From positions 248,001 through 312,000 of the forward strand of contig NZ_JALIQP010000003.1 in the NCBI RefSeq assembly GCF_023566055.1: a DNA stretch of 64,000 bases. Reading direction: 5' to 3'. How positions within the stretch are numbered: the first letter of the stretch is position 1; each line of letters opens with the position of its first letter. Below the pieces are notes generated by a model. The model worked only from the letters and a program-made list of their open reading frames with translations. It had not been told where the DNA came from and ran no database searches. Origin of the DNA: Halosolutus amylolyticus. GTDB taxonomy: Archaea > Halobacteriota > Halobacteria > Halobacteriales > Natrialbaceae. The position numbers and the translations under genes are program-made. Below are positions 4,043-37,788 of this stretch, one piece after another.

Positions 4043-4122
4043 TACGGTTTACTGTACGTCAGTTCCGGCGCAACCGCCGCCCGGATCGCGGTTGCGCCGG
4101 TACATCGGTACAGCAATCCGTA
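4043..4122 (+). repeat. 80-bp stop-codon palindrome (copy B)
   Basis: This 80-bp imperfect inverted repeat runs from TACGGTTTACTGTACGTC to ATCGGTACAGCAATCCGTA. Its centre forms a strong hairpin with stem GGCGCAACCG/CGGTTGCGCC. It starts immediately after the symporter stop codon TGA (4040-4042) and is followed by another TGA (4123-4125), which looks like a 3-bp target duplication. It differs from the copy at 30581 by two bases and has the same orientation relative to the upstream gene. Confidence 0.9.
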
Positions 4123-7717: not shown

Positions 7718-7797
7718 TACGGATTGCTGTACCGATGTCCCGGCGCAACCGCCGCCCGGATCGCGGTTGCGCCGGAACTGACGTACAGTAAACCGTA
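7718..7797 (-). repeat. 80-bp stop-codon palindrome (copy C, inverted)
   Basis: The same 80-bp element as at 4043 but inverted: it runs from TACGGATTGCTGTACCGATG to TACAGTAAACCGTA with the same central GGCGCAACCG/CGGTTGCGCC hairpin. It begins directly after the HD-hydrolase stop codon (TGA, 7715-7717). Unlike the other copies the far flank is CTA (7798-7800), not TGA. Confidence 0.9.
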
Positions 7798-29650: not shown

Positions 29651-30580
29651 ATGAGCGACTTCGATCAGTTCAGCGACGTCGGCGAAGCGGACGTAACGCG
29701 CGCGATCGGCCAGGAGTGGACCGAGGAGTTCATGGACTTCTCGGACTCGGACGTCATCATCGTCGGCGGCGGTCCCTCGGGGCTGACCGCGGCGAAGGAA
29801 CTCTCCGAGCGCGGCGTGAAGACGATGGTCGTAGAGAAGAACAACTACCTCGGCGGCGGCTTCTGGCTCGGCGGGTTCCTGATGAACAAGGTCACGGTTC
29901 GGGATCCTGCCCAGCAGATTTTGGACGAACTCGAGGTGTCCTACAAGCAGTCCGAGGACAGCGAGGGGCTCTACGTCGCCAACGGGCCGGAGGCCTGTTC
30001 CGGCCTCATCAAGGCCGCCTGCGACGCCGGCGCGAAGATGCAGAACATGACCGAGTTCACGGACATCGTCATCCGAGAGGATCACAAGGTCTCGGGGATC
30101 GTTATGAACTGGACGCCGGTCCACGCCCTGCCCCGCGAAATCACGTGCGTCGACCCGATCGCCGTCGAGGCGGACCTGGTCATCGACGCGACCGGTCACG
30201 ACGCCATGGCCGTCAAGAAACTCGACGAGCGCGGCGTGCTCGACGCGCCCGGCATCGGCGACGCCGAGGCCAACGCTACCGGAATGGACCAGACCGGTGA
30301 CGACAGTTACGGCGCGCCCGGCCACGACTCGCCCGGTCACGACTCGATGTGGGTCGGCAAGAGCGAAGACGCCGTCGTCGAACACACCGGCCTCGTCCAC
30401 GACGGCCTGATCGCGACGGGGATGGCGACCGCGACGACCTACGGTCTCCCGCGGATGGGCCCGACCTTCGGGGCCATGCTCGTCTCAGGCAAGCGCGCCG
30501 CCCAGGAAGCGATCGACGAACTCGGCGTCGACGCCGACCCCGTCGACATCACCAGTCGCGCGACCCCCGCCGACGACTGA
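29651..30580 (+). CDS. thi4: Thiamine thiazole synthase Thi4 (Cys-type, single turnover)
   Basis: Thi4 makes the adenylated thiazole precursor of thiamine from NAD and glycine. The 309-residue protein shows the dinucleotide-binding motif [17 protein letters not shown] (35-51), [16 protein letters not shown], and the late [21 protein letters not shown]. Cys166 in REITCVDP aligns with the sulfur-donating active-site Cys of yeast Thi4 and the equivalent Cys in Haloferax, so this is probably the suicide form, unlike the sulfide-using His-type enzymes of methanogens. It is monocistronic. A ThiR-type regulator is encoded 8 kb away (38587). Its TGA stop abuts an 80-bp palindrome, which is thus placed to act on the thi4 3' end. 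Confidence 0.95.
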
Positions 30581-30660
30581 TACGGTTTACTGTACGTCAG
30601 TTCCGGCGCAACCGCCGGCCGGATCGCGGTTGCGGCGGTACATCGGTACAGCAATCCGTA
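30581..30660 (+). repeat. 80-bp stop-codon palindrome (copy D)
   Basis: The element begins at the base after the thi4 TGA (30578-30580), runs from TACGGTTTACTGTACGTC to GTACAGCAATCCGTA, and is followed by TGA (30661-30663). It has the same orientation as the copy at 4043 and differs from it at two positions that both fall in the central hairpin (one of them weakens the stem). Confidence 0.9.
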
Positions 30661-30813
30661 TGAGCGGTTCTGACCGGCGGACGAAGGGCACGTGACACGA
30701 TCGTAATCTTTCCTGGTCCGGAATCGAAACTCGCGACTAGCCCGCTTTCCGCCCCTCGAGATCGGCGATCGCTTTTCGGAAACGCCCAGTTCGTGGGAAT
30801 CACCGAAACCCAT

Positions 30814-34464: not shown

Positions 34465-34701
34465 ATGAGTCGACACGTATTACTCGCGATCGTGGTCAGC
34501 GTCGCCCTGCTCGTCGGGGCGGCCGGAACAGCAACGGCAACGCCGGGCGAGGGCCCGCCGGAGGACCTCCCGGAGCCGGTGCCCGACTTCGTTTCGGATC
34601 TGCACGAAACGATCAGTAGCTTCCTCGACGGTGCGATCGACTCGCTCGGGGACGCCGTGTCCGAGATCACGCCCGGTGCGGTCGTGCCGACGACGAAGTG
34701 A
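34465..34701 (+). CDS. Small secreted protein, 78 residues
   Basis: The product begins MSRHVLLAIVVSVALLVGAAGTATA, a clear Sec-type signal peptide with a likely cleavage after ATA. The remaining 50 or so residues are Pro-rich then helical and acidic (PEPVPDFVSDLHETISSFLDGAIDSLGDAVSEITPG). No domain is recognised. The next gene also encodes an exported protein, 195 bp downstream; the region 34465-37788 is a run of exported proteins on one strand. The frame is open 11 codons upstream, but the signal peptide favours ATG 34465. Confidence 0.65.
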   Translation: MSRHVLLAIVVSVALLVGAAGTATATPGEGPPEDLPEPVPDFVSDLHETISSFLDGAIDSLGDAVSEITPGAVVPTTK

Positions 34702-34896: not shown

Positions 34897-36015
34897 ATGA
34901 CCGACCGTAACCCTCGATCGATCGGCCGGCTGCTGATCATTGCCCTCGCGCTCTCGCTGGTCGTTTCCGGACCGCTTTCGGTCGCCGGTGCGGCCGCGAG
35001 CGGGTCGGGGTATCACGCCGCCGAATCTCCGGATGGCTTCTCGGCGGCCCCCGAAGACGTCGATCCCGACCGGGTCCGGATGAACGTCGCCCTGGCGGCC
35101 GACGGCTCCGCCGAGTGGACCGTGGAGTTCTGGGTCGAACTCGACGACAACGAGTCGACCGAGGCCTTCGAGTCGGTCGCGGCCGAGATCGACGAGGATC
35201 CGGAGCCCTACCTGACGCGCTTTGCCGATCGGATCGATTCGACGGTCGCCGTGGCGACCAACGCGACCGATCGGGAGATGTCGACCGACGGGTTCGCCGT
35301 CGAGACGGAACGGCAGTCGCTGGCCCGCGAGTACGGCATCATCAGGTACACGTTCGACTGGCACGGCTTCGCCGCTACGGATGGGACCGAACTGCGCGCC
35401 GGGGACGCGATCGAGGGCTACTATCTCGACGACGGAATCCGATTGATCGTCTCCTGGCCCGAGGAATACGAACTGACGAGCGCGAGCCCTGAACCGGACG
35501 ATCATCGAGAGAACGCGGTCATCTGGAGCGGGTCGCAAACGGAGTTCGTCTCCGGCGAACCCCGGGTGGTCGTCTCGACCGGGACGACCGGATCGGGACC
35601 GTCGCTCTCGACGATCGCGATCGGCGTCGCGGTTCTCGGCGTCGTCGGACTCGGCGTCGCAGCGTGGTATCGCCGGCGGGGATCGGGCGGCGTTCCCGCG
35701 CCGATTCCGGGTGGCGACGACGACGGGGATGGACCGGCGGCGACGACCGACGAGGATGTGGACGACGAACCCGTTCCCGAGGAGTTCCTGAGCAACGAAG
35801 AGCGCGTCCTCCGCCTCCTCGAGGAACGGGGCGGCCGCATGAAACAACAGGACGTCGTCTCGGCACTCGACTGGACGGACGCGAAGACGAGCAAGGTCGT
35901 CAGCAGGCTGCGCGAGGAGGGGAAACTCGAGTCGTTCCGGCTGGGTCGCGAGAACGTTCTCACCCTGCCCGAGGCGGAGGACGCGGTGATCGAGTCCGGA
36001 GAGCGACAGGACTGA
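34897..36015 (+). CDS. Membrane-anchored sensor-like protein with cytoplasmic winged helix
   Basis: The 372-residue protein has a signal peptide (LLIIALALSLVVSGPLSVAGA), an extracellular beta-rich domain (about 48-225; VRMNVALAADGSAEWTVEFWVELD...FADRIDSTVAVATNATDREM), one membrane helix (about 232-250, STIAIGVAVLGVVGLGVAAW), an acidic linker, and a cytoplasmic winged-helix domain (about 295-355; NEERVLRLLEERGGRMKQQDVVSALDWTDAKTSKVVSRLREEGKLESFRLGRENVLTL). An outside sensor wired directly to DNA binding is inferred. The ectodomain is homologous to that of the protein at 37066. The TGA stop abuts the 80-bp palindrome at 36016. Confidence 0.88.
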   Translation: MTDRNPRSIGRLLIIALALSLVVSGPLSVAGAAASGSGYHAAESPDGFSAAPEDVDPDRVRMNVALAADGSAEWTVEFWVELDDNESTEAFESVAAEIDEDPEPYLTRFADRIDSTVAVATNATDREMSTDGFAVETERQSLAREYGIIRYTFDWHGFAATDGTELRAGDAIEGYYLDDGIRLIVSWPEEYELTSASPEPDDHRENAVIWSGSQTEFVSGEPRVVVSTGTTGSGPSLSTIAIGVAVLGVVGLGVAAWYRRRGSGGVPAPIPGGDDDGDGPAATTDEDVDDEPVPEEFLSNEERVLRLLEERGGRMKQQDVVSALDWTDAKTSKVVSRLREEGKLESFRLGRENVLTLPEAEDAVIESGERQD

Positions 36016-36095
36016 TACGGATTGCTGTACCGATTTACCGGCGCAACCGCCGCCCGGATCGCGGTTGCGCCGGAACTGACGTACAGTAAACCGTA
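36016..36095 (-). repeat. 80-bp stop-codon palindrome (copy E, inverted)
   Basis: The element starts directly after the TGA stop of the winged-helix sensor gene (36013-36015) and ends before a second TGA (36096-36098). It is in the same orientation as the copy at 7718 and differs from it at only two or three positions (around ACCGATTTACC). Confidence 0.9.
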
Positions 36096-36277
36096 TGAGA
36101 GGTGGGCACCGCGATCGAGGGGCGAACCGCCGTAATCGCACGACGGCGTCGGACCGTTTCGCCGAATTTACGACCGTTTCCGGGGGTCGCCGACGGTGTC
36201 AAACGTCGTTAATAGTCGTTGAACCGGAGTGATAATCGACCCTGTATATGGAGCGAGAGCGCCACGTCTCAATCGTC

Positions 36278-37063
36278 ATGAGACGACCAACGAAGATCGT
36301 ACTCGCACTGCTACTCGCCGTCTCGATGGCGGCGATGCCCCTCGCGGCTGCCGACGTCGGCGCGGCCGCGAACGCACAGGAACAGGACGCCGAGGACGAG
36401 GAATCCGTCGCGCCCGGCGAACAGCTGGCCGCCGTCGTCGGCGTCCAGGAGGCCGAACTGGACGGTGAAGTCTCGGAACGTGCGTACGGGATCAAGGTCG
36501 CCGCCGCGCAGACCGAGGACGCCAGAGCCGATGTCGTCCTGGAACAGCAGGCCGACGTCGAGAAGCGCATCGCGGACCTCGAGAACCGGACCGCGGAACT
36601 GAACGCCGCCTACGAGGACGGCGAACTCACCCGCGGCCAGTACGAGGGCCGGATGGCCGCGATCGCGGCGGAACAGCGGACGGCCGAGCGGCTGGCCAAC
36701 GGCACGGCGGCGACCGCAAGTGAACTGGAGAACCCCGAAGCGCACGGGATCGACGTCGACGCGATCCAGACGCTCGCGGAAACCGCGAGCGAACTCACCG
36801 GACCCGAGGTCGCCGAAATCGCCCGATCGATCGCCGGCGAGGGCGTCGGCCAGCCGGTCGACGCGGACCGCGAACCCGGCGCGCCGATCGAACCGCCCGC
36901 CGCAGATGGCGACGCGCCCGAGGACGCCGACGATCCGGAGACGCCGGACACCGACGGTGACGAGGACGAGTCGGACGCGGACGAGCAGAACGGGACGGAT
37001 ACCGAAGAGCCGGCGTCCGAAGCGGGCGACGAACAGGCCCAGGACGACGCCGGGAGCCAGTAA
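36278..37063 (+). CDS. Exported protein with helical region and acidic disordered tail
   Basis: The 261-residue precursor starts MRRPTKIVLALLLAVSMAAMPLAAADVGAAANAQ, a Sec-type signal. The mature protein has a predicted helical or coiled segment (about 85-150; VVLEQQADVEKRIADLENRTAELNAAYEDGELTRGQYEGRMAAIAAEQRTAERLA) and a long low-complexity tail of Asp, Glu, Pro and Ala from about residue 190. An ATG 10 codons upstream (36248) is an alternative start. The next gene follows after two bases, so they form an operon with the PGF-CTERM protein. A related arrangement of a helical exported protein next to the ectodomain family suggests they act together, but the function is unknown. Confidence 0.75.
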   Translation: MRRPTKIVLALLLAVSMAAMPLAAADVGAAANAQEQDAEDEESVAPGEQLAAVVGVQEAELDGEVSERAYGIKVAAAQTEDARADVVLEQQADVEKRIADLENRTAELNAAYEDGELTRGQYEGRMAAIAAEQRTAERLANGTAATASELENPEAHGIDVDAIQTLAETASELTGPEVAEIARSIAGEGVGQPVDADREPGAPIEPPAADGDAPEDADDPETPDTDGDEDESDADEQNGTDTEEPASEAGDEQAQDDAGSQ

Positions 37064-37065
37064 GA

Positions 37066-37788
37066 ATGGAACGAAGGATCGTCGCTCTCGGCGTCGTACT
37101 CGTGCTTTCGGGTCTCCTGGCCGCTCCGGCTTCCGGTGCCGGTGTGGCGGCCAGCGATCCCGCCGATGCCGACGAACCGATGTTACACGTCGAACTGACG
37201 GCCGACGGTGACGCCACCGTGTCGCTCGTCAGCGTGTACGACCTCTCGGACGAGGACGAACGTGACGCGTTCGCGTCGCTCGAATCCGACGACGAGACCC
37301 GTGCAGAATTGCTCGATCGGTTCGCCGATCGAACGGGGTCGGTCGCCGCGAACGCGAGCGAGGAGGTCGACCGCGAGATGACGGTCACGGCGGATTCGAT
37401 CGACGTCCGCACGACGGACGACGAGCGCGGCGTCGTCGTGCTCTCGGTGACCTGGGAGAGGCTCGCGGCGGTCGAGGACGATCGGCTCGTCGTGACCGAA
37501 CCGTTCGCGAGCGGGTACGAGCCCGATCGAACGGTCGTCGTCTCCGGCCCGGACGGGTCGACGGTCGAGACGACGACACCGACGCCGGACGCCGAGACGG
37601 ACGGGCAGGCGAGCTGGAACGCCGGCACGTCGCTCGACGGATTCGAAGCGACGTTCTCACTGTCCGGCGAGGAGTCAGCGGCGGAGGACCCCGCCGACGA
37701 CTCGCTTCCCGGGTTCGGCGTTCCGGTGACGGCCGCCGCCCTGCTCGCGGTTCTCGGAATCGCGATCGGGCGCCGTCACGACGGCTAA
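37066..37788 (+). CDS. PGF-CTERM-anchored surface protein, paralogue of the sensor ectodomain
   Basis: The 240-residue precursor has a signal peptide (IVALGVVLVLSGLLAAPASG) and a beta-rich domain (MLHVELTADGDATVSLVSVYDLSDEDERDAF...RFADRTGSVAANASEEVDREM) that matches the ectodomain of the winged-helix protein at 34897. The C-terminus has Pro-Gly-Phe, a hydrophobic helix and RR (LPGFGVPVTAAALLAVLGIA...GRR), the PGF-CTERM signal that the archaeosortase ArtA processes before lipid attachment in haloarchaea. It is the second gene of an operon, two bases after the preceding stop. It could be a partner or decoy for the sensor. Confidence 0.87.
   Translation: MERRIVALGVVLVLSGLLAAPASGAGVAASDPADADEPMLHVELTADGDATVSLVSVYDLSDEDERDAFASLESDDETRAELLDRFADRTGSVAANASEEVDREMTVTADSIDVRTTDDERGVVVLSVTWERLAAVEDDRLVVTEPFASGYEPDRTVVVSGPDGSTVETTTPTPDAETDGQASWNAGTSLDGFEATFSLSGEESAAEDPADDSLPGFGVPVTAAALLAVLGIAIGRRHDG

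Follow-up and report, generated by a model that had tools for sequence, protein, structure and literature searches.

A predicted transmembrane winged-helix receptor encoded with a helical secreted protein and an anchored copy of its sensor domain in haloarchaea

Architecture of the three encoded proteins

The window analyzed here, a stretch of 64,000 nucleotides from Halosolutus amylolyticus (contig NZ_JALIQP010000003.1, positions 248,001 to 312,000), encodes on its forward strand a winged-helix receptor (R), a helical exported protein (H), and an anchored ectodomain (A). R (P0001, 372 aa; 34897..36015, +), delineated from Pfam matches, an AlphaFold2 model (mean pLDDT 81.9), and Foldseek comparisons, comprises in order a signal peptide, a DUF7345 ectodomain (residues 64–191; 35086..35469, +; PF24036, E 2e-27), one membrane helix (residues 237–261; 35605..35679, +) with YRRR after it on the cytoplasmic side, a disordered linker, and a DUF7343 winged helix (residues 298–358; 35788..35970, +; PF24034, E 5e-29, 100.3 bits) whose recognition-helix segment is WTDAKTSKVVSRL. 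At 96.4 bits against a Pfam gathering score of 27.5, the ectodomain belongs to the DUF7345 family. The membrane helix is supported by the AlphaFold2 model, hydropathy, and the positive-inside rule, and it recurs in 62 of the 65 receptors from complete R-H-A modules, lysine and arginine being richer after the helix than before it in 57. The model, computed from a 64-sequence alignment of loci from our genome scan, places the signal helix at residues 7–22, the ectodomain at 59–227, the membrane helix at 237–261, and the winged helix at 300–356, the last with high confidence (pLDDT about 96). Foldseek matched this winged helix to those of DNA-bound HsmR, PcaV, and DprA at 1–4 Å (1.1 Å over 61 residues for HsmR), and the receptor profile had no match among PDB sequences. 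The initial annotation of this DNA had proposed a membrane helix joining an exported domain to a DNA-binding winged helix, which the DUF7343 match and the modeled helix at 237–261 bear out; the winged helix, which it had wanted checked in structure models, proved canonical, with matches to DNA-bound HsmR and MarR-type regulators. Just 5' of R, a 75-aa exported ORF (window 34474-34701) carries a signal peptide and has no Pfam match.

Behind the membrane helix lies a 35-residue linker modeled with low confidence (pLDDT < 50 at residues 264–289). This linker could be cut, and regulated intramembrane proteolysis might release the winged helix and so activate R, a possibility already raised in the initial annotation. 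However, a conserved cleavage motif was not seen in the linker alignment, and ToxR and CadC bind DNA while in the membrane (PMC10269533). Activation by this route strikes us as improbable; taken by themselves, membrane-tethered DNA binding by R and proteolytic release of its winged helix are equally possible.

H (P0003, 261 aa; 36278..37063, +) lies between the two ectodomain genes, where the initial annotation had correctly placed a helical exported protein. It was classed as a secreted coiled-coil protein from its likeness to DUF7096 (PF23379) and its conserved adjacency to A and R, and is predicted to be helical, with a signal peptide, an acidic disordered tail, and no anchor. H itself scores 19.5 bits with PF23379, below the gathering threshold of 27 and hence outside the family as curated, and the same profile is matched by 19 of 24 H relatives at E ≤ 0.01 (best 3.5e-10). 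H proteins of type I are short (about 260–340 aa), and those of type II reach 500–800 aa, the long ones having PepSY-, Ig-, and Fn3-like domains.

A (P0002, 240 aa; 37066..37788, +), delineated from PF24036, TIGR04126, and AlphaFold2 (pLDDT about 95 over residues 40–200), combines a signal peptide, a DUF7345 ectodomain (residues 42–162; 37189..37551, +; PF24036, E 1e-20, 74.7 bits against the gathering score of 27.5, hence within the family), and a PGF-CTERM-like anchor (37696..37785, +) assigned from TIGR04126, family support, and the presence of ArtA. The C-terminal tail of A, PGFGVPVTAAALLAVLGIAIGRRHDG, resembles substrates of the PGF-CTERM/ArtA system (TIGR04126, TIGR04125) in having the PGF motif (PGFG), a hydrophobic membrane segment, and a basic C-terminus (RRH), and in that the same genome encodes archaeosortase A (ArtA, TIGR04125, 332.8 bits); it differs from them in scoring 19.4 bits with TIGR04126, below the curated cutoff of 24.5. 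TIGR04126 is matched by 17 of 25 sampled A relatives at E ≤ 0.01 (best 2e-9), and PGF occurs in the last 60 residues of 53 of 83 family members, about a third having another hydrophobic C-terminal tail. The earlier proposal of a sortase-processed anchor is thus upheld as regards a PGF-CTERM-like tail in an ArtA-encoding genome, but the tail is sub-threshold and the correct term is archaeosortase. Halorubrum-type A proteins without PGF (L147, L156, L160) end in (S/P)LPTPL(A/V)PTLALL...GYAGWRR, perhaps another sorting signal.

Ectodomain family and gene neighborhood

The ectodomains of R and A can be aligned over 198 residues with 29% identity (BLASTP, E 3e-16). As the initial annotation had claimed for the products starting at 34897 and 37066, they are homologous: both are DUF7345, and the RFADR-(I/T)-x-S-x-(V/A)-A and DREM motifs on which it had relied were confirmed. 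This likeness is that of a real duplication: in a FastTree phylogeny of 271 ectodomains, built without bootstrap and with some long end branches, 95 anchored copies fell on one side of a branch with a local support of 100. DUF7345 was found in 145/145 haloarchaeal genomes sampled, and a search for viral copies found none. For both ectodomain models, Foldseek returned no solved structure above a TM-score of 0.5; the Fenna-Matthews-Olson protein, LppM, and zinc proteins all came out below this value, and therefore no fold is assigned. Matches to DUF4897 (E 0.005 and 0.012) were weak and are not claimed as relationships. In terms of Pfam families, R consists of DUF7345 and DUF7343, A of DUF7345, and H is a weak DUF7096 relative; our literature search on DUF7345, DUF7343, DUF7096, DUF7094, and Cmi2 found no papers, and the association of DUF7345, DUF7343, and DUF7096, the anchored architecture, and the candidate operator presented below seem not to have been reported before.

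Gene neighborhoods were surveyed at 82 anchored-copy loci, including 80 fetched from a 391-genome sample and two in this genome (the window and a second module). With H identified by a profile from three seeds, A also by a small profile, and start codons picked by rule, H adjoined A in 77 of these loci and R stood beside them in 65, i.e., R, H, and A occurred together in 65, H and A only in 12, and A alone in 5. R is divergent from H-A in 39 loci, and R-H-A is collinear in 22. This grouping is not due to chance, and the rare co-occurrence of the two ectodomain architectures that would have spoken against the initial annotation was not seen. Between the stop codon of H and the start of A, the median gap is 2 bp, with many 4-bp overlaps; since most loci have the two genes overlapping or almost abutting, they are probably co-transcribed as one operon. 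Correlations of 0.6–0.85 between R, A, and H distances were considered as evidence of contact and set aside, as they are expected from co-inheritance.

When an independent set of 80 loci was fetched with receptors as bait, which biased it towards type I receptors, H was found beside R in 75 and A in 12, and H was a neighbor in 24–25 of 30 loci of a third receptor clade, here called core receptors, as scored with a small profile. Loci with the R-H pair include L199, L200, L206, L209, and L216 in Haloferax. Strong matches to the profile of A were listed in about 78 of 391 genomes (20%). One-component surface signaling through a receptor and an anchored partner, as first suggested for this DNA, gains from the adjacency (65 of 82), the canonical winged helix, and the candidate operator, but the emphasis has to shift: H had been undervalued, being the near-invariant partner of R (75 of 80), and A is present in about 20% of genomes.

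This distribution also bears on whether A and H might be surface-structure proteins (e.g., S-layer accessory or adhesion proteins) whose amount R merely tunes, the A ectodomain having been borrowed from R without a signaling role. A is missing from about 80% of genomes and R and H are common, so that signaling does not need A, as this explanation would have it. Against it, where A does occur, H almost always adjoins it and R usually does, and the A copies all belong to one clade, co-inherited with the module. On balance, a purely structural role appears doubtful to us.

The H. amylolyticus genome encodes a second complete R-H-A module (C3:189776-193506), and one of its two modules is divergent, the other collinear. 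It also encodes a core receptor, oriented divergently from the gene for a DUF7096-DUF7094-Fn3 protein, and two lone receptors. These two DUF7345-DUF7343 receptors (L010, L011) have no adjoining H, and L011 is located next to argG. A type IV pilin-like archaeal gene (Pilin_N, E 2e-9; L009:8765-9262) comes after the H partner of the core receptor. Four more DUF7343 winged helices above the cutoff (L017, L018, L019, L020) are found in ORFs of 147–216 aa without DUF7345, which are possible soluble or differently anchored relatives.

A candidate operator of 10-bp repeats

Upstream of H lies an array of 10-bp direct repeats (36199..36238, +), a candidate operator delineated by lag-10 analysis with controls and by a repeat model. 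Its units are TCAAACGTCG, TTAATAGTCG, and TTGAACCGGA, plus a degenerate GTGATAATCG, and 49 bp separate the end of the third unit from the H start codon. The H-A operon has a predicted TATA box (TGTATATG; 36243..36250, +), read from the sequence and with a spacing also seen in relatives, which lies 28 bp upstream of the H ATG at 36278; this ATG is probably leaderless. Other examples of the repeat read from intergenic regions are TGCAAACCGC, TGCAAATCGC, and TGCAAACGAC. Type I loci have the repeat unit TtAAaCcgcG and type II loci TGcAAccGgc, and the repeat model reaches about 25 bits per sequence versus 7–9 in shuffles. In type I, the array ends about 49 bp before the H start, immediately upstream of TATA; alternative starts of H, or its recent loss, blur these positions.

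In the best 30-bp window, lag-10 identity averaged 19.5 in divergent and 16.9 in collinear loci, versus about 11.8 in shuffles. Across 60 dereplicated module loci, the maximum 30-bp identity was 18.4, compared to 12.5 for the controls, 207 intergenic regions of those loci, and 82% of the module loci versus 7% of the controls scored at least 16 (Fisher 2e-29, with shared descent of the loci inflating this and all other P values of the array statistics). A harmonic was present at lag 20, there was no excess at lags 7–9 or 11–13, and in the comparison with shuffles no further lag stood out. The score of 16 was reached in 59% of R-H loci, most of them without A, and in 0 of 16 core receptor loci; sequences upstream of R in collinear loci are without the array (9%). 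In this genome, strict patterns for the two arrays were each found only at their own module.

The class of repeat follows the subtype of the winged helix. Of the loci whose receptor has a WS recognition helix, 22 show GCAA repeats and 2 TTAA repeats, and of those with a WT helix, all 15 scored show TTAA repeats and none GCAA repeats; because the sequences are related by descent, these counts represent about three clade-level contrasts and not 39 independent ones. TTAA repeats accompany a WT helix in two divergent loci, so it is the helix, and not the gene order, that the match tracks. The core clade displays a different site in its R-H region, the near-palindrome AAAACG[CT]TTTC(CATC) (loci L029–L058), with AAAACG[CT]TTTC present in 20 of 30 loci and absent (0) from 2.3 Mb of background strand. 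The best match to this site in our genome falls in the core R-H region (C2:995314), and AAAACG[CT]TTTC is probably the operator of the core receptor. Among the H-A loci without a neighboring R, 9 of 12 keep a lag-10 score of at least 16, and in most genomes with such loci a strong type I receptor is encoded at another place, frequently paired with an H of its own. Three genomes in which A has no H or R next to it (G110, G317, G346) lack such a receptor.

Phasing of AA/TT at 10 bp is a known cause of DNA curvature, and the repeats could instead be A-tracts phased so as to bend DNA, or serve as a site for a different regulator or a general factor, with R acting elsewhere and sharing no more than an export or surface function with its neighbors H and A. 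Retention of the array in loci without a neighboring R would agree with such a role, as would the ability of this phasing to curve DNA. Yet the other intergenic regions of the same loci are without the array, core receptor loci are without it and have a site of their own, the repeat class tracks the winged-helix subtype (including in the two divergent WT/TTAA loci), and a type I receptor is usually available in trans where H-A has no neighboring R. We consider this explanation quite unlikely, and the 10-bp repeat array looks like R's own binding site.

An interspersed imperfect palindromic repeat of about 94 bp was also observed, at window positions 4048-4069, 7771-7792, 30575-30668, and 36010-36103. 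With up to 2 mismatches allowed, its 22-base end (TTTACTGTACGTCAGTTCCGGC) has 4 copies in the window and 75 in the genome, versus 0 for a control pattern, and the copy between R and H has no counterpart at this position in the nearest relative (L091). The element is MITE- or REP-like.

Proposed circuit and comparison with known regulators

Taken together, we think it probable that R, H, and A form one regulatory module, in which a transmembrane one-component regulator would control H-A and A may serve as an accessory competitor or co-receptor. R would be a single-pass regulator of this kind, with DUF7345 outside and a MarR-like winged helix inside, and would bind the helically phased 10-bp repeats just upstream of the H-A TATA box, thereby controlling the operon. 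We infer binding of the array by R, the direction of control, and contact between R and H. In archaeal promoters, a regulator positioned just upstream of TATA points to activation, and because the array is located there, its position suggests that R activates H-A. Given the conserved R-H pairing, H would be the standard extracellular partner of R, as a ligand, co-sensor, or inhibitor. A would be an archaeosortase-anchored second copy of the R sensor domain that either pairs with R or competes with it for one and the same extracellular partner, leading to feedback; this decoy or co-receptor role, proposed because A carries the sensor domain of R, is speculative and the least certain step. A fully specified receptor-and-decoy circuit, in which the tethered regulator activates both a ligand and an anchored sensor copy and the copy soaks up the ligand as negative feedback, is a tentative proposal that we would not expect to hold in all its parts.

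The near-invariant R-H pairing would also be compatible with an envelope-stress monitor, in which a chaperone-like H occupies the R ectodomain and is drawn off by misfolded surface protein, and with A, a receptor for H at the surface, setting the threshold, a system working like CpxP-CpxA or ToxS-ToxR. H is helical, secreted, and without an anchor, and the PepSY-, Ig-, and Fn3-like domains of type II H are typical of surface proteins, all of which would fit. However, H displays no detectable homology to CpxP or Spy: its NCBIfam match is at chance level only (E 1.4), leaving it outside these families. We regard stress monitoring of this kind as unlikely.

Considered as a regulatory module, R-H-A has its closest parallels in the transmembrane transcription regulators (TTRs), which include ToxR, TcpP, and CadC, as well as ArnR/ArnR1 in Sulfolobus (Demey et al. 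2023, PMC10269533). In these, too, a single chain combines a DNA-binding domain, a membrane helix, and an external sensor domain, and an accessory partner, exported or in the membrane, is encoded alongside (ToxS, TcpH), as H is alongside R. With a predicted DNA-binding domain and transmembrane region in the same chain, R fits the structural part of the TTR definition, and it would also regulate transcription from the membrane in response to an external signal, for which the candidate operator is circumstantial evidence. Unlike in these regulators, the winged helix of R is MarR/IclR-like and C-terminal, behind a signal peptide and ectodomain, and not an N-terminal cytoplasmic OmpR-type domain with a periplasmic domain at the C-terminus, which places R outside the ToxR-like family, and no sequence relation of R to ToxR or ArnR is shown. 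The module further differs in that the partner is a secreted coiled coil and in the presence of the archaeosortase-anchored sensor copy. The ToxR operator, a direct repeat TNAAA-N5-TNAAA with a 10-bp period (PMC4829181), is analogous to the R array in consisting of 10-bp direct repeats, but the arrays here have three or more units, and the likeness is apparently a case of convergence. CsmR of Haloferax (PMC13286277) was considered as a relative of R and rejected, as it is a 13-kDa soluble winged-helix protein.

DUF7345 is present in every one of 145 sampled haloarchaeal genomes, yet these receptors are still unnamed, and their conserved partner and clade-specific operators would provide a concrete circuit for the flow of information from surface to promoter in haloarchaea. 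To our knowledge, haloarchaea have no periplasm in the bacterial sense. The presence of an anchored sensor-domain copy points to a decoy or co-receptor at the cell surface, and we know of no archaeal one-component system described as built in this way. A third H paralogue in this genome (L028, G000:C5, about 118.7 kb) adjoins a soluble ArsR-type regulator with an HTH_Cmi2_C domain, which there stands in place of the DUF7345 receptor.
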